From Pseudomonas sp. B33.4 (lineage in GTDB: Bacteria > Pseudomonadota > Gammaproteobacteria > Pseudomonadales > Pseudomonadaceae), in assembly GCF_034555375.1 (NCBI RefSeq), contig NZ_CP140706.1, forward strand, positions 1,975,001-2,039,000: a DNA stretch of 64,000 nucleotides, in the 5' to 3' direction. The translations under genes and the position numbers were made by a program. The notes under the pieces were generated by a model. That model had not been told where the DNA came from. It was given only the letters and a program-made list of their open reading frames with translations, and made no database searches. Positions within the stretch are counted from its first letter, which is position 1. The number at the start of each line of letters is the position of its first letter. Shown piece by piece: positions 48,486 to 62,440 of this stretch.

Positions 48486-49229
48486 CTACATGGCGGCTAT
48501 ACGCGTCTCGCTGGCTTCCTGCGCATAACCAGCCACGGCGCCGATCACCAGTATCGCAGGGCTCTTCAATTGAAATCTGTAGGCTGCTTCGTTCATTGCC
48601 GTGAGATCGCTCCGGCATTCTCGTTGCTCTGGTAACGATGCATTCTCGATCATCGCCACCGGCGTATCCGCCGCCATCCCACCCGCCAACAACTGATCGC
48701 GAATCTCGCCCAGCTTCGCCACGCCCATGTAAATCACCAGCGTCGTGCCGCCTTGCGCCAGCGCCTGCCAGTTCAATTGGCTGTCGTCCTGGGTGTGCGC
48801 TGTCACCAACGTCACCCCACGTGACACACCGCGCAACGTCAGCGGAATATCGCACTGCGTCGCCCCGGCCAGTCCGGCGGTAATGCCATTGACCAACTCC
48901 ACTTCAACGCCACGTTCACGCAACCACTGCGCCTCTTCACCGCCACGGCCGAAAATGCATGGATCGCCACCCTTGAGTCGCACCACACACTTGCCGTGAC
49001 GCGCGTAGCGCAGCATCAGACGATGAATGAACGCCTGTGGTGTCGACCGGCAACCACCGCGTTTACCCACCGCAATGATGCGGGCGCCAGGACAGTGTTC
49101 CAGCACCGCGTCGTTGACCAGATCATCGATCAGCACCACATCGGCCTCGCGCAAGGCGCGTACCGCTTTTAGGGTCAGCAATTCGGGATCACCGGGACCT
49201 GCACCCACCAGCCAGACTTTTGCGTTCAT
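48486..49229 (-). CDS. cobA: uroporphyrinogen-III C-methyltransferase
   Basis: 247 residues from ATG 49229, MNAKVWLVGAGPGDPELLTL (P-x-DPELLT SAM signature 1). RLKGGDPCIFGRGGEEA is signature 2, and the family ending VIGAVAGYA follows. It methylates uroporphyrinogen III twice to precorrin-2, needed for siroheme. It starts 13 bp after the nitrate reductase stop and shares the nirBD-nasC operon, where siroheme is used by NirB. Confidence 0.93.
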   Translation of the reverse strand: MNAKVWLVGAGPGDPELLTLKAVRALREADVVLIDDLVNDAVLEHCPGARIIAVGKRGGCRSTPQAFIHRLMLRYARHGKCVVRLKGGDPCIFGRGGEEAQWLRERGVEVELVNGITAGLAGATQCDIPLTLRGVSRGVTLVTAHTQDDSQLNWQALAQGGTTLVIYMGVAKLGEIRDQLLAGGMAADTPVAMIENASLPEQRECRSDLTAMNEAAYRFQLKSPAILVIGAVAGYAQEASETRIAAM

Positions 49230-49242
49230 GGTGTTTTCCTCA

Positions 49243-51957
49243 TCAGATAACGGCGACCGGCTGCACATCGGCAGCCAGCAAACGCTTTATTTCCGGGACG
49301 CACGAGCCGCATTGCGTGCCGCAGCCCAAATTGTTTTTCAACCCTTGCAGATCCAGACCCTGGCGAATGCCGGCGCAGACCGTGTTGAGGCTGACGTTGT
49401 TGCAGTTGCACAGGGTTTTATCCGCAGCAATTTGCGCCCCGACACTGCCCGGCGGCGCACTCATCGGCGCCAGAAGCCAGCGCCGCAGTTGTTCGTCCGC
49501 ACGACCTTCCAGCCACAACCCCTGTAGCCAATGCTGGGCAAGGGTTTCACCGGCCAGGCGGATGGCGGTGATACGGCCATTTTCAATACGCACGCGCTTG
49601 CCAATGGCCCGGCGCGGATCGTCGTAGGCCAAAACCGGGCCGTCGATCAGCGACAAGCAATGATCGATTTCACCGAGCAATTGCGCATCCGGTGCCTCGC
49701 TGTTGGCAGCGCGTATCAGCAATGCCGATCGTTCACGTCCGACAAGGCTGAGACTCACGTAGGAAAATGCCTCGCAAAGCGGTCGTAGCGTCTCGAAATG
49801 CCGTTGAACATCACCCTCAATGAGTGCGAAAAGCTGCCACGGCAGATTGACCGGCTCCAGGCGCACACCGCTGTGTTTCAGTTCCGGTTGTTTCGACAGC
49901 GGATCGAAGGCCGGCAGGGTCAGGCTGTTCACGCCGCCCTTGAGAAAGCGGTCGCCCCAGTGCATCGGTAGAAACGCTTGTCCTGGACGGACGCTGTCAT
50001 CACTGCCGACCGCAATAATTACCGCGCCGCGACGACTCTTCAGATTGACCAGATCGCCCGGCTGCAAGCGATGCCGGCGCATTTCGTCCGGATGCAGGCT
50101 CAACACCGCTTCGCTGACATGCCCGAACAGTTGCGCCGCCGTGCCGGTGCGGCTCATACCGTGCCATTGATCGCGCAGGCGGCCAGTGATCAATGTCAGG
50201 GGAAAGCGTGCATCACGCTGTTCTTTGGCGGCGCGATAAGGGTCGGCTATGAATTGCGCGCGTCCGTTGGCGGTTGGGAAAATTCCGTCTTCGTACAGTC
50301 GTGTTGTTCCTTGCCGCGCACCGACAGGGAAGGGCCATTGCTGCGGTCCGATCTCGTCGATCAGCGCGTGACTGATCCCGGACATATCCAGATCGCGGCC
50401 ATGCGTTAGCCCTTTAAATTCATCGAACAACTGCGCAGGTTGGTTGAACGTAAACAGGCTTGGCTCGGCGGGGCGCAGACGTTTCTCCAGTCGTTGTGCG
50501 AAATCTACCGTGATCGCCCAGTCCGGTCGTGCCTCGCCCGGTGGGAGAATGGCTTTGCGCACGTGGGAAATGCGTCGCTCGGAGTTAGTGACTGAACCTT
50601 CTTTCTCGCCCCAACTGGCGGCGGGTAGCAGGAGATCTGCGAATGCTGCGGTTTCGGTGGTTCGGAAGGCTTCCTGCAGAACCACAAACGGGCAAGCTTC
50701 CAGCGCCGCGCGCACCGCACTCTGATCCGGCATCGATTGCGCAGGGTTGGTGCAGGCAATCCACAACGCCTTGATCTTGCCGCTGCGCACTTGCTCGAAC
50801 AGTTCGATGGCGCTGAGACCAGTGCTTTCCGGCAGTTGATCCACACCCCAATAAGCCGCAACTTCGGCGCGGTGTTCCGGGTTGGCCGCGTCACGATGAC
50901 CCGGCAACAGGTTCGACAAACTGCCAGTTTCCCGTCCGCCCATGGCATTTGGCTGACCGGTGAGAGAGAAAGGTCCTGCACCCGGACGGCCAATTTGCCC
51001 GGTGGCCAAGTGCAGATTGATCAGCGCGCTGTTCTTCGCGCTGCCGGCTGTGGACTGGTTCAGCCCCATGCACCACAGCGACAGAAAACCTGGCGAAGTG
51101 CCCACCCATTCGGCGCACTGCTGCAATTGCTCAACGCTGATGCCGCACAACTGCGAAACCATTTGTGGGGTGTAATCACGCACCAGACTTTTCAGTTCGG
51201 CGAGGCCATCGGTGTGCGCCTTGACGAAGTCGCGATCAATCCAGTCTTCCCACAACAACAGATGCAAAATCCCATGGAACAAGGCGACGTCGGTGCCGGG
51301 CAGAATCGCCAGATGCAGGTCGGCGAGGTCGCAAGTGTCAGTGCGCCGTGGATCAATGACGATGACTTTCATCTGCGGGCGGCGGGATTTTGCCTCTTCC
51401 AGCCGACGGAAAAGTACCGGGTGGGCGTAGGCCATGTTACTGCCGACAATCATCACGCAATCGCTGAGTTCCAGATCCTCATAACTGCAAGGCGGGGCGT
51501 CGGCACCAAGGCTGCGCTTGTAGCCGACCACGGCTGAGGACATGCACAGGCGTGAATTGCTATCGATGTTGTTGGTGCCGACCAGCGCCCGCGCCAGTTT
51601 GTTGAAGGCGTAGTAGTCCTCGGTCAGCAACTGCCCGGAAATATAGAACGCCACACTGTCCGGGCCATGCTCGGCGATGGTCTCGGCGAACACGTTTGCG
51701 GCGTGTTCCAGTGCGGTGTCCCAGTCCGTGCGGCTGCGGGCCAGGCCTTTGCCCAGGCGCAGTTCCGGGTACAGCGCGCGAGCAGCGAGGTCGCCGGTCA
51801 GGTGCAGGGTCGAGCCTTTGCTGCACAGTTTGCCGAAGTTGGCCGGATGTGCCGGATCGCCGCTGACGCCGAGGATGCGCTCGCCGTCATGCTCGATCAG
51901 CACGCCGCAGCCGACCCCGCAATAACAGCAGGTCGAGGCGGTCGTCTGGCGGTTCAT
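49243..51957 (-). CDS. nasC: assimilatory nitrate reductase, large subunit
   Basis: 904 residues from ATG 51957. The N-terminal [4Fe-4S] motif is STCCYCGVGCGVL...GKLCSKG; the molybdopterin domains of the DMSO-reductase superfamily follow (GSNMAYAHPVLFRRLEEA, CMGLNQSTAGSAKN, HWGDRFLKGGVNSL). A C-terminal BFD-like [2Fe-2S] domain (TLCNCNNVSLNTVC, then CGTQCGSCVPEIK) marks the NasC-type assimilatory enzyme. It reduces nitrate to nitrite in the cytoplasm. Its start overlaps nirD stop by one base (TGATG). Confidence 0.95.
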   Translation of the reverse strand: MNRQTTASTCCYCGVGCGVLIEHDGERILGVSGDPAHPANFGKLCSKGSTLHLTGDLAARALYPELRLGKGLARSRTDWDTALEHAANVFAETIAEHGPDSVAFYISGQLLTEDYYAFNKLARALVGTNNIDSNSRLCMSSAVVGYKRSLGADAPPCSYEDLELSDCVMIVGSNMAYAHPVLFRRLEEAKSRRPQMKVIVIDPRRTDTCDLADLHLAILPGTDVALFHGILHLLLWEDWIDRDFVKAHTDGLAELKSLVRDYTPQMVSQLCGISVEQLQQCAEWVGTSPGFLSLWCMGLNQSTAGSAKNSALINLHLATGQIGRPGAGPFSLTGQPNAMGGRETGSLSNLLPGHRDAANPEHRAEVAAYWGVDQLPESTGLSAIELFEQVRSGKIKALWIACTNPAQSMPDQSAVRAALEACPFVVLQEAFRTTETAAFADLLLPAASWGEKEGSVTNSERRISHVRKAILPPGEARPDWAITVDFAQRLEKRLRPAEPSLFTFNQPAQLFDEFKGLTHGRDLDMSGISHALIDEIGPQQWPFPVGARQGTTRLYEDGIFPTANGRAQFIADPYRAAKEQRDARFPLTLITGRLRDQWHGMSRTGTAAQLFGHVSEAVLSLHPDEMRRHRLQPGDLVNLKSRRGAVIIAVGSDDSVRPGQAFLPMHWGDRFLKGGVNSLTLPAFDPLSKQPELKHSGVRLEPVNLPWQLFALIEGDVQRHFETLRPLCEAFSYVSLSLVGRERSALLIRAANSEAPDAQLLGEIDHCLSLIDGPVLAYDDPRRAIGKRVRIENGRITAIRLAGETLAQHWLQGLWLEGRADEQLRRWLLAPMSAPPGSVGAQIAADKTLCNCNNVSLNTVCAGIRQGLDLQGLKNNLGCGTQCGSCVPEIKRLLAADVQPVAVI

Positions 51958-52274
51958 CAGACGGCGTCCCGCAGGGCCAGTTGCACACGACCGTTTTCGA
52001 CCCGCGCCGGGTGATGGTGCGCGCAACCGATGTCCGGCGCCTGAGCTTCGCCGGATTCGAGGTCGATTTGCCAGTTGTGCAGGGGACAGGCCACGCGTTT
52101 GCCGTAGATCAACCCTTGTGACAGTGGTCCGCCCTTGTGTGGGCAGCGGTCGTCGAGGGCGAAAACTTCGTCGTCGCTTGTACGAAAAATCGCGATGTCG
52201 CCTTTCGGCCCGGCAATGATCCGCGAGCCGAGGGCATTGATCTCGTCGAGGGCACAGATATCGAGCCAGTTCAT
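51957..52274 (-). CDS. nirD: nitrite reductase (NADH) small subunit
   Basis: 105 residues starting MNWLDICALDEINALG. A Rieske-type fold with CPHKGGPL and CPLHNWQID, here with both CxH pairs, so it should bind a [2Fe-2S] cluster. NirD pairs with NirB to reduce nitrite to ammonium. It overlaps nirB by 4 nt (ATGA) and nasC by one base, so all three are translationally coupled. Confidence 0.93.
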   Translation of the reverse strand: MNWLDICALDEINALGSRIIAGPKGDIAIFRTSDDEVFALDDRCPHKGGPLSQGLIYGKRVACPLHNWQIDLESGEAQAPDIGCAHHHPARVENGRVQLALRDAV

Positions 52275-54724
52275 GCAGGCACCTCCAGATTTTTCACCGG
52301 GATTACGTCGAATTCTTTCTTCAGTTGCGGCTGCGCCAGGCGTTCTTTCCACGGGTCCTGTTCGAATGACAGGGAAAATTGCAGGCGTTCGTTCAGGGTT
52401 TTGCGGCGTTCCGGGTCTTCCAGAACAGCCTTCTTGATGTGCTCCATACCGACCCGTTGCAGGTAGTGCACGGTGCGTTCGAGGTAAAAGGCTTCTTCGC
52501 GGTAGAGCTGCAGGAAGGCACCGTTGTACTCGCGCACTTCTTCGGCGGTTTTCAGCTTGACGAAGAATTCGGCGACTTCGGTTTTGATCCCGCCGTTACC
52601 GCCGATGTACATTTCCCAGCCGGAGTCGACGCCGATAATGCCTACGTCCTTGATCCCCGCTTCCGAGCAGTTGCGTGGGCATCCGGAGACCGCGAGTTTC
52701 ACTTTGTGCGGCGACCACATGTTGAACAGGTCGTGCTCGAGTTCGATACCCAGTTGTGTCGAATTTTGCGTGCCGAAGCGGCAGAACTCGCTGCCGACGC
52801 AGGTTTTCACCGTGCGGATGGATTTGCCGTAGGCGTGGCCGGAGGGCATGTCGAGGTCTTTCCAGACGCCGGGCAAGTCCTGCTTCTTGATGCCGAGCAA
52901 GTCGATGCGCTGGCCGCCGGTGACCTTGACCATCGGCACCTGATACTTGTCAGCCACATCGGCAATTCGCCGCAGTTCCGAAGGGTTGGTCACGCCGCCC
53001 CACATGCGTGGTACCACCGAATAGGTACCGTCCTTCTGGATGTTGGCGTGCGCACGCTCGTTGATCAGGCGCGATTGCGGGTCGTCCTTGGCTTCGCCGG
53101 GCCAGGTGGAAATCAGGTAATAGTTGAGGGCAGGGCGGCAGGTGGCGCAGCCGTTCGGCGTGCGCCAGTTGAGGTAGCTCATGGTGCCGGCGATGGTCAG
53201 CAGATGCTGTTCGCGAATCGCTTGGCGAATCTGCCCGTGGTTGAGATCGCTGCATCCGCAGATGGCTTTTTCGCTTTTCGGTTTGACGTCGGCCGCGCCG
53301 CCAACGGTGTTGATCAGGATCTGTTCGACCAGCCCGGCACAGGAACCGCACGAGCTGGCAGCCTTGGTGTGTTTCTTCACTTCATCGACGCTGAACAGGC
53401 CGTGTTCCTGAATGGCTTTGACGATGGTGCCTTTGCACACGCCGTTGCAGCCGCAGACTTCGGCGGTGTCGGCCATGACCATGGCTTTGTCCTGGCCTTG
53501 ATGTCCTACGTCGCCTAACGCATTTTCTCCAAACATCAGGTGATCGCGGATCTCGCCGATGGCGTGATTCTCACGAATCTGGCGGAAATACCAACCGCCA
53601 TCTGCCGTATCGCCGTACAGACAGGCGCCGACCAGCACGTCATCCTTGATCACCAGTTTTTTGTACACGCCGCCAATCGGATCGGAGAGGGTGATCGTCT
53701 CGGTGCCTTCGCCGCCCATGAAGTCGCCAGCGGAAAACAGGTCGATCCCGGTGACTTTCAATTTGGTCGACGTCACCGACCCCTGATAACGGGCGAACCC
53801 CAGTTGTGCGAGATGGTTGGCGCAGACCTTGGCCTGCTCGAACAATGGCGCGACCAGACCGTAGGCAATGCCGCGATGGCTGGCGCACTCGCCGATCGCG
53901 TAGATGCGCGGATCGTAGGTTTGCAGGGTGTCATTGACCAGAATCCCGCGATTGCACGGGATGCCGGCCTTTTCCGCCAATTCGGTGTTAGGGCGAATGC
54001 CGGCCGCCATCACCACCAGATCAGCGGGGATGATGTCGCCGTTCTTGAATTGCACCGAGCCGACCCGGCCATTGCCGGCGTCATGCAAGGCCTGGGTCTG
54101 TTCGCACAGACGGAAATGCAGACCACGGGATTCGAGGGCGCTTTGCAGCAGTTGGCCGCTGGTTTTGTCCAGTTGCCGTTCCAGCAGCCATTCGCCGATG
54201 TGCACCACCGTGACGTGCATGCCGCGAAGCATCAGGCCGTTGGCGGCTTCGAGGCCGAGCAGGCCACCGCCGATGACCACCGCGTGTTTATGGGTTTTGG
54301 CGGTGTCGATCATCGCCTGGGTGTCAGCGATGTCGCGGTAACCGATCACGCCGTGCAGGGTGTTGCCGGGGATCGGCAGGATGAATGGCGTCGAACCGGT
54401 GGCGATCAGCAGGCGATCGTATTCCGCTTCGCTGCCGTCCTCGGCGATCACCCGGCGTTTGACCCGGTCGATCTGCACTACTTTGCGATTGAGCAGTAAC
54501 TTGATGTTGTTTTCCAGGTACCAGTCGAGGTCGTTGAGCACGATCTCTTCGAAGGTCTGCTCACCAGCCAGCACCGGCGACAGCAGGATGCGGTTGTAGT
54601 TGGTGTGCGGTTCGGCGCCGAAGACGGTGATGTCGTACAGCTCGTTGCTCAGTTTGAGCAGCTCTTCGAGGGTACGAACCCCGGCCATGCCATTGCCGAT
54701 CATCACCAGTTTGAGTTTTTTCAT
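52271..54724 (-). CDS. nirB: nitrite reductase (NADH) large subunit
   Basis: 817 residues from ATG 54724, MKKLKLVMIGNGMAGVRTLE. FAD/NADH domains (VIGGGLLGLEAANGLMLRGM, IYAIGECASHRGI) are followed by a BFD-like [2Fe-2S] pair (EVCGCNGVCKG, ASSCGSCAGL, then AICGCSDLNHG, NGCATCRPAL) and the siroheme/[4Fe-4S] domain (KTCVGSEFCRFGTQNS, SGCPRNCSEAGIKD). It reduces nitrite to ammonium with NADH. Its 5' leader has the hexaloop hairpins and terminator described at 54796, and a sigma54 promoter beyond. Confidence 0.95.
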   Translation of the reverse strand: MKKLKLVMIGNGMAGVRTLEELLKLSNELYDITVFGAEPHTNYNRILLSPVLAGEQTFEEIVLNDLDWYLENNIKLLLNRKVVQIDRVKRRVIAEDGSEAEYDRLLIATGSTPFILPIPGNTLHGVIGYRDIADTQAMIDTAKTHKHAVVIGGGLLGLEAANGLMLRGMHVTVVHIGEWLLERQLDKTSGQLLQSALESRGLHFRLCEQTQALHDAGNGRVGSVQFKNGDIIPADLVVMAAGIRPNTELAEKAGIPCNRGILVNDTLQTYDPRIYAIGECASHRGIAYGLVAPLFEQAKVCANHLAQLGFARYQGSVTSTKLKVTGIDLFSAGDFMGGEGTETITLSDPIGGVYKKLVIKDDVLVGACLYGDTADGGWYFRQIRENHAIGEIRDHLMFGENALGDVGHQGQDKAMVMADTAEVCGCNGVCKGTIVKAIQEHGLFSVDEVKKHTKAASSCGSCAGLVEQILINTVGGAADVKPKSEKAICGCSDLNHGQIRQAIREQHLLTIAGTMSYLNWRTPNGCATCRPALNYYLISTWPGEAKDDPQSRLINERAHANIQKDGTYSVVPRMWGGVTNPSELRRIADVADKYQVPMVKVTGGQRIDLLGIKKQDLPGVWKDLDMPSGHAYGKSIRTVKTCVGSEFCRFGTQNSTQLGIELEHDLFNMWSPHKVKLAVSGCPRNCSEAGIKDVGIIGVDSGWEMYIGGNGGIKTEVAEFFVKLKTAEEVREYNGAFLQLYREEAFYLERTVHYLQRVGMEHIKKAVLEDPERRKTLNERLQFSLSFEQDPWKERLAQPQLKKEFDVIPVKNLEVPA

Positions 54725-54795: not shown

Positions 54796-54885
54796 AAAAA
54801 AAGGCGTCCCGCTAGTTGCCTAGCGAGGACGCCTTTGTCCTGGTCCCGTTCTCTCGGGAAGCGCAGCCTTCGTCGTTGAAGGTTG
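54796..54885 (-). promoter_or_regulatory. ANTAR (NasT)-target leader with terminator upstream of nirB
   Basis: Read on the minus strand: hairpin P1 (54864-54885) with stem CCTTC/GAAGG and hexaloop AACGAC; hairpin P2 (54844-54859) with stem TCCCG/CGGGA and hexaloop AGAGAA; then a strong terminator hairpin (54800-54836, AAAGGCGTCC...GGACGCCTTT) followed by a run of T. Both loops have A at position 1 and G at position 4, the rule for ANTAR-protein targets. NasT is encoded at 58.6 kb, so nitrate-dependent antitermination is expected. Confidence 0.75.
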
Positions 54886-54913
54886 GGCTTTATGTGTATG
54901 TTGAATGGGGTAA

Positions 54914-54929
54914 TGCAGTGGTTGTGCCA
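54914..54929 (-). promoter_or_regulatory. sigma54 promoter of nirB-nirD-nasC-cobA
   Basis: The minus strand reads TGGCACAACCACTGCA: TGGCAC and TGCA with GG-N10-GC spacing. The predicted start (~54903) lies just before hairpin P1. Confidence 0.72.
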
Positions 54930-55056
54930 ACTACGAGAAGCGCGGTTTTACTGGGTTTCGTCAGTGCTAATTAAGGTTTTTCTGCACCGTATCGAAGCGG
55001 ACTGCCCGTTCGTGGAGCGTTCAAACAGGAAGATTTGTGGTGATCAGGCGGGCGCC

Positions 55057-55076
55057 TTCGCGAGCTTGCTCGCGAA
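55057..55076. repeat. single REP palindrome
   Basis: TTCGCGAGCTTGCTCGCGAA, a perfect palindrome-like hairpin between the kinase gene stop and the nirB promoter. Confidence 0.7.
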
Positions 55077-55090
55077 TGACGCGATGCGGT

Positions 55091-56749
55091 TCAACTGTGA
55101 AACAACAAAATCAGCAGCAACAGATTCCCCAACAGAGCCACCAACGCCATCGTCCGCCAGACCTTCAAGGGCTCACGCTCCAGTAACGGCCGAGGCCGCA
55201 CGCTCAAACTCCGCCGCTCGCCCTGTTCCAGCACCAGCAGCCATTCCTCAGCCGTCTCAAACCGTTGTTGCGGATCAGCCGCCACGCCACGCTCCAGACT
55301 CTGCGCCAACCATTCCGGCAAATCCGGCCGATAGCGACTGGCATTCACTGGCAGGCCAAAGCGCGGCCGTTGAAACGCTTCAATCTCGCCATAGGGAAAA
55401 TGCCCGGTCAGCAGGAAATACAGGGTCACGCCGACCGCATACAAATCCTGCTGCGCACTCGGCGGAGCACCTCGAAACGCTTCCGGGGCGATGTAACTTG
55501 GGGTCCCGGGCAACATTGACGGCGCGTCTTCGGACAAACCCGGGCAATACGCCAAGCCAAAATCCAGCAGACGCAATTCGCCGTCGTCGCCCATGTGCAG
55601 GTTTTCCGGTTTGATGTCCCGGTGCAAGATCTGCCGACGATGCAGCAGCCCTACCGCGCGTAGCAGACGCTCGGCGATGTCTCGCCATTGAGCCAAGGGG
55701 AGATGCCCGAGTTGCGCCAGCGTCGTCCCGGAATATTCGCGCATCACGTAGTACAAATGCTGACGCTGTTGGCAGGCATGGACTTCAGGAAAGTGGCGGC
55801 CGGCCACGCGTTTCAGGAACCATTCCTCGGACAGCAACGCCTGTCCGGCGTGGGAATCGTCGTTGGAACGCGAGGGCAAGGTTTTCAGCAACCACGTCTG
55901 ACCTTGTCCGTCGACCGCCCGATACAGCAGTGATTGCTGGCTCTGAGCGACAACATCCAGCACCTGCCAGCCTTCGAACGACTGGCCGGGTTTCAGCGGC
56001 GGTGGCAAGGGCCATTGCTGCAAATGAATCAATGCATCGCCGATATTCGCTTCACCCACCGCATCGACGCGCACCAGCAAAGCGCTGGCGTTGTCCTGAC
56101 TGCCCGCCAGATGTGCCGCGTTAACAAGTGTCTGAGCAGTACTGCTCAGATCCGGCTGATCACGCAGAATTGCCGCAATCGCGGTATCGCCCAATGTCGA
56201 CCAGACACCGTCACTGAGCAGCACAAAGCTTTCGCCGTCACGCAGTTCGCCGTCGAGAAAATCCAGCACCAGATGCTGATCCAGTCCCAGCGCACGCTTG
56301 AGCACATGCTGCATGCCCGGCTGATCCCAAACGTGATCTTCACTGATCCGCTGCAAACTGTCGGCGTGCCAGCGATACACCCGACAATCGCCGACGTGGG
56401 CGAGGGTGAAACGCCGACCGCGCATGACCAAAGCACTGACCGTGGTGAGCAACGGTTGACCACCGCCATTGGCCTGCAACCAGCGATTTTGCGCGAGCAG
56501 CAGGCGGTCCAGCGCCTGCGCCACGCTCCAGGTTTCTGGCGTGGCGTAGTAGTCGAGCGCCAGGGCCTGCACCGTCGAACGGGCGGCGAGTCCGCCATCG
56601 GCGCACTGACTGACGCCGTCGGCGATGGCGAACAGATAACCTTTGCTCGCCGCCAGTGCCGGAGCCGGTGTCACCGAACGCAAGGCGTCCTGATTCTCCG
56701 CGCGCGGACCGGTGGCGCTGGCTTCGGCAAAGCTCAGTTGCAGGGCCAT
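55091..56749 (-). CDS. bifunctional PP2C-type phosphatase / Ser-Thr protein kinase, membrane-anchored
   Basis: 552 residues. N-terminal PP2C phosphatase (~1-240) with complete metal Asp motifs: ENQDALR, FAIADGVSQCADGG, VGDCRVY, LLSDGVWST and SQDNASALL. A Ser/Thr kinase follows (~265-510) with the catalytic loop ILHRDIKPENLHM, LLDFGLAY and GTPSYIAPEAF. A C-terminal membrane helix (WRTMALVALLGNLLLLILLF) places the catalytic parts in the cytoplasm. It starts 7 bp after the nitrate transporter stop and is in the same transcript. The same fusion lies here in P. aeruginosa. Its target is unknown; regulation of nitrate uptake is an inference from linkage. Confidence 0.92.
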   Translation of the reverse strand: MALQLSFAEASATGPRAENQDALRSVTPAPALAASKGYLFAIADGVSQCADGGLAARSTVQALALDYYATPETWSVAQALDRLLLAQNRWLQANGGGQPLLTTVSALVMRGRRFTLAHVGDCRVYRWHADSLQRISEDHVWDQPGMQHVLKRALGLDQHLVLDFLDGELRDGESFVLLSDGVWSTLGDTAIAAILRDQPDLSSTAQTLVNAAHLAGSQDNASALLVRVDAVGEANIGDALIHLQQWPLPPPLKPGQSFEGWQVLDVVAQSQQSLLYRAVDGQGQTWLLKTLPSRSNDDSHAGQALLSEEWFLKRVAGRHFPEVHACQQRQHLYYVMREYSGTTLAQLGHLPLAQWRDIAERLLRAVGLLHRRQILHRDIKPENLHMGDDGELRLLDFGLAYCPGLSEDAPSMLPGTPSYIAPEAFRGAPPSAQQDLYAVGVTLYFLLTGHFPYGEIEAFQRPRFGLPVNASRYRPDLPEWLAQSLERGVAADPQQRFETAEEWLLVLEQGERRSLSVRPRPLLEREPLKVWRTMALVALLGNLLLLILLFHS

Positions 56750-56756
56750 CGACGGC

Positions 56757-57968
56757 TCAGACCCGCGCCGCCGTCACCGCTGCCGAACCCCAGGTGGTTC
56801 TCCAGCGACGCTTGACGCCGTGCAGGCCAAACCATGCCAACACGCCGAGACTGGCGAACAACCACAGGGCCAGTTGATAGCTGCCGGTGCTCTGTTTGAT
56901 CGCGCCCATGCCGGCGGCCAAGGCAAAACCACCGATGCCTCCGGCCATGCCGATCAGTCCGGTCATCACGCCGATCTCCAGACGAAAACGCTGCGGTACC
57001 AGTTGGAAAACCGCGCCGTTGCCTGCCCCTAAACCGAGCATAGTGCAGACGAAAAGTGCCAGCGCCGCGTAGGAACTCGGCAAGTTGAAACCGACCGCGG
57101 CTATGCATACGGCGGCGACGGTGTACATCGCCAGCAGCGTGCGAATGCCACCGAAGCGATCCGCCAGCGCACCACCCAGCGGCCGCATCAAGCTGCCGCC
57201 GAACACGCAGGCAGCGGTGTAGTAACCGGCAGTCACCGGGCTCAAACCGTATTGATCGTTGAAGTAGCCGGGCAGGGCGCTGGCCAGACCGATGAAGCCG
57301 CCGAAGGTCACGCTGTAGAAAAACATGAACCACCAGCTGTCACGGTCGCCCAGCGCCTTGAAGTAGTCGGCCATGGCTTTGGCTTTCGGCCGTTGTGGCG
57401 CGTTTTTCGCCAGCCAGGCGAACAGCACCAAAGTCAGGATCAGCGGAATCAAAGCGAAACCGAACACATTGCTCCAGCCGAACGCGGCGGCGAGTACCGG
57501 CGCGAGCAGCGCGGCGAATACGGTGCCGGAGTTGCCCGCACCGGCAATGCCCATGGCTTTGCCCTGATGCTGCGGTGGATACCATTGCGAGGCCAAGGGC
57601 AGGGCGACCGCAAACGATGCGCCGGCCATGCCGAGGAACAGGCCGAGTATCAACGCCTGCTCGTAGCTATGAATGCCGATTTTCCAGGCGCCGAACAGCG
57701 CGAAAATCACAATGACCTGACCGATCAGCCCGGCGGTTTTCGGCGACAGCCGATCGGCGAGCATGCCCATGATGAAGCGCAACACGGCGCCAGCAAGGAT
57801 CGGCGTGGCGACGACCAGGCCACGTTGTTGCGTGGTCAGGTGCAGGTCAGCAGCGATCTGCACCGCCAGCGGGCCGAGCAGATACCAGACCATGAAGCTC
57901 AGGTCGAAATAGAGGAAGGCCGCGAACAATGTCGGGGTGTGGCCGGATTTCCAGAAGCTTGAATTCAT
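56757..57968 (-). CDS. nasA: nitrate/nitrite MFS transporter
   Basis: 403 residues from ATG 57968, MNSSFWKSGHTPTLFAAFLY. Twelve hydrophobic helices of the NarK/NasA type. The nitrate-signature helices contain GIAGAGNSGTVFAALLAP and GLGAGNGAVFQLVPQRF, with the GxxNxG-type Asn residues. It imports nitrate for assimilation. It is the first gene of a two-gene unit with the phosphatase-kinase and is preceded by its own ANTAR leader and sigma54 promoter. Confidence 0.93.
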   Translation of the reverse strand: MNSSFWKSGHTPTLFAAFLYFDLSFMVWYLLGPLAVQIAADLHLTTQQRGLVVATPILAGAVLRFIMGMLADRLSPKTAGLIGQVIVIFALFGAWKIGIHSYEQALILGLFLGMAGASFAVALPLASQWYPPQHQGKAMGIAGAGNSGTVFAALLAPVLAAAFGWSNVFGFALIPLILTLVLFAWLAKNAPQRPKAKAMADYFKALGDRDSWWFMFFYSVTFGGFIGLASALPGYFNDQYGLSPVTAGYYTAACVFGGSLMRPLGGALADRFGGIRTLLAMYTVAAVCIAAVGFNLPSSYAALALFVCTMLGLGAGNGAVFQLVPQRFRLEIGVMTGLIGMAGGIGGFALAAGMGAIKQSTGSYQLALWLFASLGVLAWFGLHGVKRRWRTTWGSAAVTAARV

Positions 57969-58069
57969 CGCGCACCTCAGCTGAAAAGAGTCTCGAAAGG
58001 AGTCATGCAACAGCAGGTGGAGCGCCGCCACGGCCGCACCACCGGCCCCGGTCTGTGGGGCCAAAACGC

Positions 58070-58154
58070 AAAAACGCCGCTACCTGATTCGCCGGAGGGG
58101 CGAACGGGGTGAGCGACGTCTTTGTCGTGGGTGGGGCAACCGCCGTTGGTTACC
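58070..58154 (-). promoter_or_regulatory. ANTAR (NasT)-target leader with overlapping terminator upstream of nasA
   Basis: Read on the minus strand: P1 (58135-58154), stem GGTAACC/GGTTGCC, hexaloop AACGGC; P2 (58114-58127), stem CGAC/GTCG, hexaloop AAAGAC; then GACGTCGCT (58112-58120) can pair with AGCGGCGTT (58073-58081), followed by T. The terminator 5' arm shares bases with the 3' side of P2, so P2 and terminator exclude each other, the expected antitermination switch. Both loops have A1 and G4. Confidence 0.72.
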
Positions 58155-58167
58155 TGAGGGGATGCTT

Positions 58168-58183
58168 AGCGAGATTTGTGCCA
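58168..58183 (-). promoter_or_regulatory. sigma54 promoter of nasA-kinase
   Basis: The minus strand reads TGGCACAAATCTCGCT: GG-N10-GC with a full TGGCAC block. The predicted start (~58157) is at the foot of hairpin P1. Confidence 0.65.
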
Positions 58184-58201
58184 ACAGCCGGAAAATCAAA
58201 A

Positions 58202-58577
58202 GCCCCTCACCCTAGCCCTCTCCCGGAGGGAGAGGGGACTGACCGAGGTGTCTGGCGCCAGACATCGACTTGGGAAACCGAGTCGATTCCGGATTCACAG
58301 CAGAAAGCTACAGGCCGGCGTACTTCGCGAGGGGACTGACCGAGGTGTCTGGCGCCAAACATCGACCTGAGAAACCGAGTCGATTACGGATTCACAGCAG
58401 AAAGCTACAGGCCGGCGTACTTCGCGAGGGGACTGACCGAGGTGTCTGGCGCCAAACATCGACCTGAGAAACCGAGTCGATTACGGATTCACAGCAGAAA
58501 GCTACAGGCCGGCCTATTTCCCGAGCATCCCCCAATCAGTCCCCTCTCCCTCTGGGAGAGGGCTAGGGTGAGGGGCT
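58202..58577. repeat. composite repeat element C with a 97-bp tandem array
   Basis: Arms CCCCTCACCCTAGCCCTCTC (from 58204) and the exact inverse GAGAGGGCTAGGGTGAGGGG. Three internal copies start GGGGACTGACCGAGG at 58234, 58331 and 58428, giving a 97-bp period; the last copy is cut short by the right arm. Unit sequence is shared with element B. It fills most of the gap between nasT and the nasA leader. Confidence 0.9.
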
Positions 58578-58595
58578 TTCAGTGGTTAGAACACC

Positions 58596-59171
58596 TCAGC
58601 CAAGCAACTCACTCATGGCAATAATCTGCTCCGCCACCTGAATCAATTTCTGCTGCCGGCTCATCGCCTGGCGCCGCATCAGGGTGTAAGCCTCTTCCTC
58701 ATTGCAGTCCTTCATCTTCATCAGCAACCCTTTGGCCAGTTCGATGCGCTTGCGCTCGGCCAACTGCTGATCACGGGCCTGCAACTGCGCGCGCAACGCC
58801 TGATCACTCTCGAATCGCGCCATCGCCACATCGAGAATCGGCTGTAAACGCTGTGCGTGAATACCTTCAACGATGTAGGCACTGACCCCGGACTTGATCG
58901 CCTGACGCATCACGCCAGGGTCATGCTCGTCGGTAAACATCACGATTGGCCGTGGCTGGTCGCGGCTGACCAGCACAACTTGTTCCATGACATCGCGGCT
59001 CGGTGACTCGGTATCGATCAGGATCACGTCCGGGCGCACCGTTTCGACGCGCGCGGGCAGGTCGATGGTCAGACCGGATTCGTCGATGACTTCGAAACCG
59101 GCTTCAGTCAGTGCCGCTTTCAGGCGACCGACTTTTTTCGCCGTGTCGTTGATCAACAGAATGCGCAACAT
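58596..59171 (-). CDS. nasT: NasT, ANTAR-domain nitrate-responsive antitermination regulator
   Basis: 191 residues. Pseudo-receiver N-terminus ([33 protein letters not shown]) and a C-terminal ANTAR domain ([40 protein letters not shown]). ANTAR binds paired hexaloop RNA hairpins to prevent termination. NasT is held by NasS without nitrate and released with it. It follows nasS by 15 bp. Targets are the leaders at 54796 and 58070. Confidence 0.94.
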
Positions 59172-59186: not shown

Positions 59187-60398
59187 TCAGCGGCGGGCGA
59201 GAAGGGGAGTGTCGTCGTTCAACGCGTGCAGCTTGAAACTGCGCGCGTAAGCGGCGGGATCGCTGCCGTCCCAGATTTTGCCGTCGAGCAACTGGCTGCA
59301 GCGCATGTCGGTGCCCCACGCGGCCACGCCGACTGCGGTGGCGGCGTCGCGATACAGATCGAGCTGCTGAACCTGACGGGCGACGGCCAGGTAATCCGGG
59401 TCTTCGCGCAGCAAACCCCAGCGACGGAACTGGGTCATGAACCACATGCCGTCGGACAAGTACGGCAAATTCACTTGGCCATTGCCGTGAAAGCGCAGCG
59501 CGTGCGGATCCTGCCAGCGGTTGCCGAGGCCATCGGCATAATCCCCGAGAAAACGCGGTTCGATGCACGCAAGCGGCGCGTCCAGATACTCCGACGCACT
59601 GAGCAATTGCGCGGTGCTGCGACGGTTTTCCGGGCTTTCCTCGATAAAGCGGCTGGCTTCAAGAATCGCCATCACCAACGCCCGCGCAGTGTTCGGGTAT
59701 TGCTCGACAAACTCACGCGTGCAGCCGAGGACTTTTTCCGGGTGATCGGGCCAGATGGTCTGGCTGGTAGCCAAAGTAAAACCGAGATCCTGCTGCACCG
59801 CGCTGGCGGCCCAAGGCTCGCCGACGCAAAAACCGTCGATACGCCCGGCCTGCAAGTGCGCGACCATTTGCGGCGGCGGCACCACCACGCTGTCGACGTC
59901 CTGCAGCGGATGAATGCCCTGACTCGCCAGCCAGTAATACAGCCACATCGCGTGAGTGCCGGTGGGAAAGGTCTGGGCGAAGGTGAGTTTTGCGCGGCTT
60001 TGGTGCACATGCCGATCCAGTGCTTCAGGACTGGTCACGCCGAGTTGCTGCAAGCCGTGGGAGAGGTTGAGGCTCTGGCCATTCTGATTCAGGCCCATCA
60101 GCACTGCCATATCGGTCGGGGCAACGCCGCCGATGCCCAGATGCACCGCGTAAATCAGCCCATACAAACTGTGCGCGGCATCGAGTTCGCCGCTGACCAG
60201 TTTGTCGCGCAATCCTGCCCAAGAGGTCTGGCGCTTGAGGTTCAGGGTCAATCCGTAAGGCTGAGCAAAGCCTTGCGTGGCCGCGACCACCACCGAGGCG
60301 CAATCGCTCAGGGCCATGAAGCCGAGGTTGATCGCGGTTTTTTCCGGGGCATCGCTGCCGTTGACCCAGGCCAGCGGCCCTACCGAAGGTTCATTCAT
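59187..60398 (-). CDS. nasS: NasS, nitrate-binding sensor (NrtA-like periplasmic-binding fold, cytoplasmic)
   Basis: 403 residues, no signal peptide ([20 protein letters not shown]). NrtA/CmpA-like nitrate-binding fold: [54 protein letters not shown] and [14 protein letters not shown]. Lacking export signals, it acts in the cytoplasm as the nitrate-responsive partner that sequesters NasT. It is upstream of nasT in the same operon and divergent from pyrD across 222 bp, in which I saw no strong motif. Confidence 0.93.
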
Positions 60399-60620
60399 CC
60401 AACGCTACCTCGAAAAAAAGCGCCGCCGCAGACTTTGCACAGGCAAAACCCGGGACGACGCCATTGTCCTTGCCCGCACGCCGCCATTGGCCTGCCAGCT
60501 GATAACGGTGAAGGTGCAAGGCATATGCCAGCGGCAGTGATTTGCGCGTGCGCCTCGCGCGGCAGGTCGATGCCCGGCTATAATCGCCGCCTCTTTTCGC
60601 CGCCCGAGTCATCGCCGCCC

Positions 60621-62108: not shown

Positions 62109-62189
62109 AGGGTGTTTCCCTCACTTGTTGACTGTTTTGTGTCGCGTTGACCTCAACTGAGGTCTGGCAGAAGAAACCTGCCATGGTGC

Positions 62190-62241
62190 GGCTCGCTGCC
62201 GGCGTGGCGAGCCAAGGTGTTGACGCCGTTGCGACGTCAAC
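62190..62241 (-). promoter_or_regulatory. structured 5' region upstream of rmf (possible rmf RNA motif)
   Basis: Two hairpins in the upstream region on the minus strand: GGCTCGC/GCGAGCC (62190-62213) and GTTGACG/CGTCAAC (62219-62241). A conserved RNA structure upstream of rmf (the rmf RNA motif) is known from Pseudomonas; assignment of these hairpins to it is my inference. Confidence 0.4.
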
Positions 62242-62440
62242 CTGTGTTCAGTTCTAACCAATGAGTCACACCGAGGGAATGATCGTTTTGTCATAAGGAC
62301 GTAACGAAATTAGTGCTACAGCCATAAGTAACGACGGGTTTCATGCACGGTTTTTCAGCAAACCCCGGTATGATCGGCCCCGCGCTGCATGATGGGGTTA
62401 ATTCTTTAGTGAGAATGACCCACGTTTGCGCTGGGGTATA

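Follow-up and report, generated by a model that had tools for sequence, protein, structure and literature searches.

The window examined here, a 64,000-nucleotide stretch of the Pseudomonas sp. B33.4 genome (GCF_034555375.1, contig NZ_CP140706.1, positions 1,975,001 to 2,039,000), carries three operons for the use of nitrate: nirB-nirD-nasC-cobA, nasA-kinase and nasS-nasT. Each is preceded by a leader in which a predicted sigma54 promoter, hairpins with six-base loops and an intrinsic terminator succeed one another. All three operons and their leaders lie on the minus strand, and coordinates are those of the window throughout. Very probably, the three sigma54 operons form a single regulon of the antiterminator NasT, gated by nitrate and including the operon that encodes NasT itself. 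The initial annotation had proposed two ANTAR-target leaders beside nasT, those of nirB and nasA, with two hexaloops each. That proposal is sustained by the anatomy of these leaders, by its conservation and by a genome with just one ANTAR match, but its counts need correcting: a third leader lies before nasS, outside the interval then described, and nirB has a third hexaloop.

The first operon opens with nirB (52271..54724, ATG at 54724), encoding the nitrite reductase large subunit (TIGR02374, 932.6 bits), followed by nirD (TIGR02378, 109.7 bits), for which 51957..52352 is the extent of the open reading frame (ORF), the true start probably lying further in. Next come a gene for a nasC-like molybdopterin nitrate reductase (49243..52026), recognized by profile searches and with Fer2_BFD at its C terminus, and cobA (48486..49268), encoding uroporphyrinogen-III C-methyltransferase (TIGR01469, 307 bits). 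The nasC-like protein stays below the cut-off for all 25 NCBIfam models listed. The nasA gene (56757..57968) encodes a nitrate/nitrite transporter of the NarK family and major facilitator superfamily; its TIGR00886 score is slightly below the subfamily cut-off (308.6 versus 311.7 bits). A fusion of PP2C phosphatase and Ser/Thr kinase is encoded 3' of nasA (55091..56749; PF13672 and PF00069). In the third operon, nasS (59187..60398) encodes a nitrate-binding NMT1_2 protein (PF13379, 318.7 bits) and nasT (58596..59171) a REC-ANTAR antiterminator, the sole ANTAR protein found in a profile search of the genome. The receiver region of NasT retains an Asp. At the usual receiver Lys position, as read from the residues, it presumably has a Glu, a substitution that would suit regulation through NasS instead of phosphorylation. 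About 0.41 kb separates the end of the nasT ORF from the nasA promoter, close to the 0.5 kb first quoted for NasT and NasS.

In the nirB leader, a -24/-12 box (TGGCACAACCACTGC, 54915..54929) with a GG to GC spacing of exactly 10 nt precedes hairpin P1 (CCTTC-AACGAC-GAAGG, loop AACGAC; 54867..54882). A middle hairpin, P2 (TCCCG-AGAGAA-CGGGA, 54844..54859), is the second hairpin of the initial annotation. It is followed by a switch hairpin, P3 (AGGAC-AAAGGC-GTCCT, 54826..54841), whose loop is a third hexaloop with A at position 1 and G at position 4 (A1/G4). The intrinsic terminator (AAAGGCGTCC..GGACGCCTTTTTTT, 54796..54836), a 16-bp helix, overlaps P3: its 5' arm begins with the loop and 3' arm of that hairpin, and its 3' end lies 71 nt before the nirB ATG. 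The Rfam P11 model (RF00625) matches at 54803-54941 with 137 bits, against a gathering cut-off of 70.

The nasA leader comprises a box (TGGCACAAATCTCGC, 58169..58183), a P1 hairpin with a 7-bp helix and the loop AACGGC (GGTAACC-AACGGC-GGTTGCC, 58135..58154), a switch hairpin, P2 (CGAC-AAAGAC-GTCG, 58114..58127), and a terminator (CGTCGCT..AGCGGCGTTTTT, 58070..58118) that has GTCG of its 5' arm in common with P2. It is a full-length match to the narK RNA of Rfam (RF03032), at 76.7 bits versus a gathering cut-off of 43.2. The boxes, terminators and four A1/G4 loops first assigned to these two leaders are thus found where they were placed, and so is the direct switch at nasA. The switch is not confined to nasA: since P3 overlaps the terminator arm, nirB is a direct switch as well, like nasA and nasS.

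The nasS leader spans 60413-60530, ahead of nasS-nasT. Its box (TGGCATATGCCTTGC, 60516..60530) is followed by P1 (60476..60495), in which GCC-AATGGC-GGC, with the loop AATGGC, caps a longer stem that contains a single G.G mismatch, and by a switch hairpin, GAC-AATGGC-GTC (60457..60468). The terminator (GGCGTCGTC..GGCGGCGCTTTTTTT, 60413..60462; 8-bp helix) takes up part of the switch hairpin in its 5' arm, namely loop bases and GTC, and ends 14 nt before the nasS ATG. A whole-genome search with RF03032 yields a second, weaker match here (60455-60529), at 32.1 bits and under the cut-off of 43.2: the nasS leader resembles narK RNA in design but is not filed under it.

Each leader thus has two or more hairpins with stems of 3 bp or longer and six-base A1/G4 loops, nirB having three, and their switch hairpins share the consensus GAC-AAWGRC-GTC. 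In all three predicted folds the switch 3' arm is common to the terminator, at nirB by way of P3, so that switch and terminator exclude each other on paper. The predicted terminator fold beats the switch fold by 14.6 (nirB), 15.8 (nasA) and 10.4 (nasS) kcal/mol; being energetically favoured, it would make 'off' the default state. If transcription starts about 11 nt after the -12 box, the terminated leaders would measure roughly 110 nt at nirB and 90-95 nt at nasA and nasS. Loop-to-loop spacing is 24 at nasA, 23 at nasS and 41 at nirB (P1 to P3, with P2 between).

A sigma54 promoter follows the consensus TGGCAY-N5-TTGC. The GG-N10-GC core is near consensus at all three leaders, which makes them predicted promoters, and in 45 aligned nirB leaders TGGC and CTGC of the box are invariant, these rows having been chosen for GG-N10-GC. 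The nasS box is identical in 36 of 59 loci with the leader and one base off in 16 more. A 2025 survey of sigma54 lists ANTAR genes, nasT among them, with predicted sigma54 promoters (PMC12316311), and leaders are not mentioned beside them in the portion accessible. The promoter at nasST was therefore foreseen in print; the leader, to our knowledge, was not.

How specific is this arrangement? A loose composite scan, combining box, two hexaloops and T-run, matched three times on the minus strand of the window and never on its plus strand. It also matched twice in the reversed (not complemented) window, and 80 reversed loci gave eight chance matches. Such matches mean that the loose pattern cannot decide the matter by itself, and it gave way to a covariance model and aligned leader classes. 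The model, R1, was trained solely on nasS leaders. At E<=1 it retrieved exactly three sites in the 6.6-Mb genome, with 150 of 4367 first-look candidates scored: the leaders of nasS (105.9 bits), nasA (36.9 bits) and nirB (27.0 bits), the last a weak match (E 0.026).

We assessed conservation in 80 NasS loci, some of which end before the leader site. Leaders were picked if they had a sigma54 core, the switch motif and a T-run, and the downstream gene was checked by tblastn. A leader lies before the named gene at nasS in 59 loci, at nasA in 68 and at nirB in 44; NasS follows 59/59 nasS leaders and NirB 44/44 nirB leaders, and NasA follows 68/71 nasA sites. The three other nasA-type sites (L099, L106 and one of two in L107) were dropped, the next gene being 31-33% like NasS. 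Alignments were made of nasS leaders (A1), nirB leaders (A2, 45 rows) and nasA leaders (A3); A3 holds 67 of the 71 sites plus the window, leaving out the three dropped sites and L044, with an odd promoter choice. As P1 was not used in row selection, it is a fair test of conservation. The initial annotation would have been contradicted by homologous Pseudomonas leaders lacking conserved hexaloops, which is not what the rows show: the P1 loop holds A1 and G4 in 45/45 nirB and 68/68 nasA rows; at nasS, A1 is held in 59/60 and G4 in 58/60.

Covariation points the same way, the shuffle counts below not being probabilities, as the tool itself warns. In A1, P1 and terminator together score 0.347 versus 0.185 in shuffled alignments (0/500), and both partners have changed in 11 of 16 pairs. 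Seven of the eight pairs of the nasS P1 helix are changed on both sides, and so are four pairs of the 8-bp terminator helix (95.2% of cells paired). For nasS P1 and switch, 101 cells are changed on both sides versus 35.3 shuffled (0/500), all of them in P1. P1 and terminator score 0.160 versus 0.096 in A3 (0/500), where 99.8% of cells are paired across the 7-bp P1 helix. P1, P2 and terminator score 0.069 versus 0.045 in A2 (0/500); the 16-bp nirB terminator helix has 99.4% of cells paired and four pairs changed on both sides.

With its AGAGAA hairpin, the nirB leader has one hexaloop more than the other two. We collected 50 P11-type leaders, the 45 rows of A2 and five more located via Rfam, and checked that each, apart from that of the window, precedes a gene matching this NirB. 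A P2 of this type is present in 48 of the 50, with A1 in 47/48 and G4 in 48/48; the loop variants ATAGAA, ACAGAA, AACGAT and GTAGAT show that other positions vary. P3 also occurs in 5/5 of the additional leaders. Two Stutzerimonas nirB leaders (L101, L110) are without P2 but retain P1 and the switch hairpin, at spacings of 34 and 37.

A related design stands before a more distant gene. Twelve weak P11 matches in twelve genomes of the genus (L201-L212) have a P1 loop AACGGC or AACGTC and a last hairpin that runs into a terminator-like arm and T-run. That hairpin is CAGGC-AAAGGC-GCCTG in 11 of the 12 and one base shorter in its 3' arm in the twelfth; loop spacing is 40-42 without P2 in 11 of these leaders. 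They were rejected as nirB leaders of putida, because the gene behind them, of the NirB family, is just 33-35% identical to this NirB. With so distant a gene, they represent a recurrence of the design and not covariation within orthologous leaders; nor do they show whether nirB proper needs AGAGAA.

In a sample of 119 genomes of the genus, RF03032 is found over its cut-off in 100 and P11 in 67. NasS is present in 102 of the 119, and among the matches listed R1 lies directly upstream of nasS in at least 77 of these. In two genomes (G001, G018), P11 is over the cut-off before a NirB gene (L215, L214) and NasS was not found at E<=1e-100. A sigma54-like box without hexaloop leader precedes nasS at L082, L089, L090, L096-L098, L101, L104 and L107-L111, loci that include named P. 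putida and Stutzerimonas. The leader appears to have been gained or lost at the nasS operon in these boxed, leaderless loci. We call 'putida-like' the type represented by the named P. putida loci without nasS leader (L082, L089).

Genomes of the genus also show this leader design ahead of genes for reductases of the nasC type, for an nrtA-like binding protein and for a porin-like protein whose Alginate_exp score barely exceeds the cut-off; among further loci, L177 has an nrtA-like protein behind its leader-type match. At the level of the order, R1 has matches in 18 of 244 sampled genomes. Three of these, from another genus of the family (L158, L161, L175), have behind the match a gene that shares 71-75% identity with this NasS. 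Apart from the loci named here, the genes behind order-level matches were assigned by eye only, and the matches that score lowest (28-32 bits) are insecure. L164, from another family of the order, has a formate/nitrite transporter gene (PF01226) behind a 40.9-bit match to the leader model. At L182 (G083:C111:17078-17207), a gene with the signalling domain of methyl-accepting chemotaxis proteins lies directly behind a 37.4-bit match and adjoins an nrtA-like gene with its own leader match, an arrangement that raises the possibility of nitrate taxis under NasT.

These observations suggest the following mechanism. Sigma54 RNA polymerase would start each operon under nitrogen limitation, together with an activator that we infer, and transcription would stop by default at the intrinsic terminator before the first gene. 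Nitrate or nitrite would then cause NasS to release NasT. By analogy with EutV, the A1/G4 hexaloop of P1 may recruit NasT, which would stabilize the last hexaloop hairpin. The switch 3' arm being part of the terminator 5' arm, a stabilized switch would prevent the terminator from forming, and the gene would be read. The leader of nasS-nasT being of the same kind, nitrate should boost both sensor and antiterminator: readthrough into nasST would increase NasS and NasT together, in a positive loop tempered by the co-made NasS, and basal NasT would come from leaky readthrough or another promoter. The third leader probably makes the sensor operon self-amplifying.

More tentatively, and with more doubt than confidence, we propose that nitrate-gated positive feedback of NasT on the sensor operon is used in much of Pseudomonas, outside the putida-like minority, and is combined with a three-hexaloop relay at nirB. 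There the AGAGAA hexaloop would sit between recruiter P1 and switch P3, so that NasT could be recruited at P1, be passed to or held by P2, and throw the switch at P3. If so, the nitrate threshold or induction order of nirB would differ from those of nasA and nasST. An autoregulated nitrate sensor would also alter induction dynamics, such as threshold and memory.

Several points weigh against the NasT regulon or its autoregulation. Conservation of the switch motif is built into A1-A3 through row selection, and the switch helices are so nearly invariant that pair counts do not test the switch. The three nirB hexaloops score 0.014 versus 0.009 shuffled in A2 (1/500), and controls slid by +2 and -3 reach 0.022 and 0.015. 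The nasS switch stem is just 3 bp long. The bare motif GACAANGRCGTC has 20 matches in the genome versus 26 for the pattern read backwards, and was rejected as a lone marker for want of enrichment; among the 20, only the nirB, nasA and nasS leaders have a downstream run of five T, and these also have the box. There is no listed R1 match upstream of nasS in 25 of the 102 NasS genomes, among which fall all twelve with the distant NirB-family leader, and autoregulation is therefore not essential. Elsewhere, nasTS of Paracoccus denitrificans is expressed in all nitrogen sources tested, with hairpins before nasA (PMC5424462), and narK of Bradyrhizobium, which has predicted NasT hairpins, is expressed at a higher level without NasT (PMC6759348). 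Furthermore, the initiation by NtrC and sigma54 foreseen in the initial annotation stands for the sigma54 boxes only: within 320 bp of the three promoters, no NtrC-like palindrome rises above shuffled sequence. The best sites have 3 (nirB), 5 (nasA) and 4 (nasS) mismatches to the consensus, and such matches are frequent in shuffled sequence. A review names NtrC for the nirB-type operon (PMC12830290); the Cab57 paper likewise found no NtrC site at nalA (PMC3973561).

Other explanations of the same anatomy may be considered. The nirB leader might be chiefly a trans-acting small RNA, P11, with hairpins that serve stability or targets rather than antitermination in cis. P11 is indeed filed in Rfam as a gene, and in strain PA14 two roles are ascribed to it, that of a small RNA said to be read by Caenorhabditis elegans and that of a regulator of the nirB-nirD-nasC operon (PMC12080996; PMC10977744), although others report failed replication of the C. 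elegans inheritance claim (PMC11942167). However, a single trans RNA does not explain why box, hexaloops and terminator recur before nasA, nasS and the nasC-type and nrtA-like genes of relatives, which makes this view very unlikely. The terminated leader would be P11 in either case, and both may be true. If P11 results from termination at a NasT switch, then more readthrough under nitrate should mean less P11.

The nasST leader might instead answer nitrogen limitation only, its terminator being leaky or otherwise controlled, with NasT uninvolved. NasT is needed before nitrate arrives, so that some basal readthrough is required in any event, and the putida and Stutzerimonas loci noted above retain a sigma54 box without hexaloops. 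A plain terminator, however, would not require the A1/G4 loop of the nasS P1, nor a P1 helix kept with compensatory change, and we find this alternative unlikely. Another view, that the hairpins simply end transcription of the upstream genes and that their hexaloops arose by chance, hardly seems credible: the chance matches of the loose scan (two in the reversed window, eight in the 80 reversed loci) show that such patterns arise, yet promoter-like boxes separate the hairpins from the upstream gene, and conservation extends to hairpin placement and to both loop and helix of P1. The NasT regulon remains the reading that we prefer.

Some other elements of the window deserve mention. Between nasT and the nasA promoter, just upstream of the latter, a block at 58199-58579 contains three tandem repeats of 97 bp (58232-58525), flanked by inverted repeats of 44 nt that are 98% complementary; it looks like a mobile element or one of the repetitive extragenic palindromic (REP) type. 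Rfam matches on the minus strand include an rmf leader (62127-62261, 111.9 bits) and the Pseudomonas small RNA P10 (7337-7408, 42.7 bits). Two other Rfam matches in the region, Antizyme_FSE at 23.8 bits and ctRNA_p42d at 22.1 bits, fall below cut-off and were rejected.

The nirB leader and its antitermination are largely known; what the present analysis adds is the nasS leader and the third nirB hexaloop. In P. aeruginosa, the NalA leader of nirBD-PA1779-cobA was reportedly described by Romeo in 2012, and a NalA leader in P. putida is said to have been described by Nie in 2024. A nasT deletion in P. putida abolishes growth on nitrate. For NalA/P11, antitermination by NasT, a sigma54 promoter and inhibition by cyclic di-GMP have been described (PMC12830290; PMC3973561). 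Operon, sigma54 box and NasT-dependent antitermination are thus the same as here; the review differs, in its accessible portion, in giving one transcription-blocking hairpin and no third hexaloop (PMC12830290). The narK RNA model of Rfam differs in pairing P1 only, leaving the switch hairpin unpaired; narK RNA was not found by name in the literature searched, nor was a printed link to NasT. Neither the nasST leader nor the third NalA hexaloop was found in that literature, key primary papers lying outside the search. Our reading joins the P11 small RNA, the narK RNA of Rfam and the nasS leader in one regulon with a common switch hairpin.

AmiR and EutV leaders, too, belong to operons in which their regulator is encoded, and autoregulation through an ANTAR leader is therefore not without precedent. 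The same release of NasT from NasS by nitrate, with an HI/HII leader before nasA, is described in Paracoccus denitrificans (PMC3795266; PMC5424462), and no leader is reported upstream of its nasT in the accessible text (PMC5424462). The NasR/nasF leader of Klebsiella likewise involves nitrate-responsive ANTAR antitermination, with A1 and G4 of P1 essential; NasR differs in carrying its own nitrate-binding domain and in controlling another gene set. We know of no sigma54 box at eut. The rule of two hexaloops for ANTAR targets was established with matches that include Pseudomonas (PMC3369931). In its revised form, an EutV dimer touches each hexaloop individually, and a 20-nt extension of the linker abolishes antitermination (PMC8934654). 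The natural two- and three-hexaloop leaders of nirB would offer a direct test of this one-hexaloop-at-a-time model. The eut switches of Enterococcus faecalis share with the leaders described here two hairpins, A1/G4 loops and a last hairpin that overlaps the terminator; they differ in that EutV is activated by phosphorylation, whereas NasT is held by NasS.

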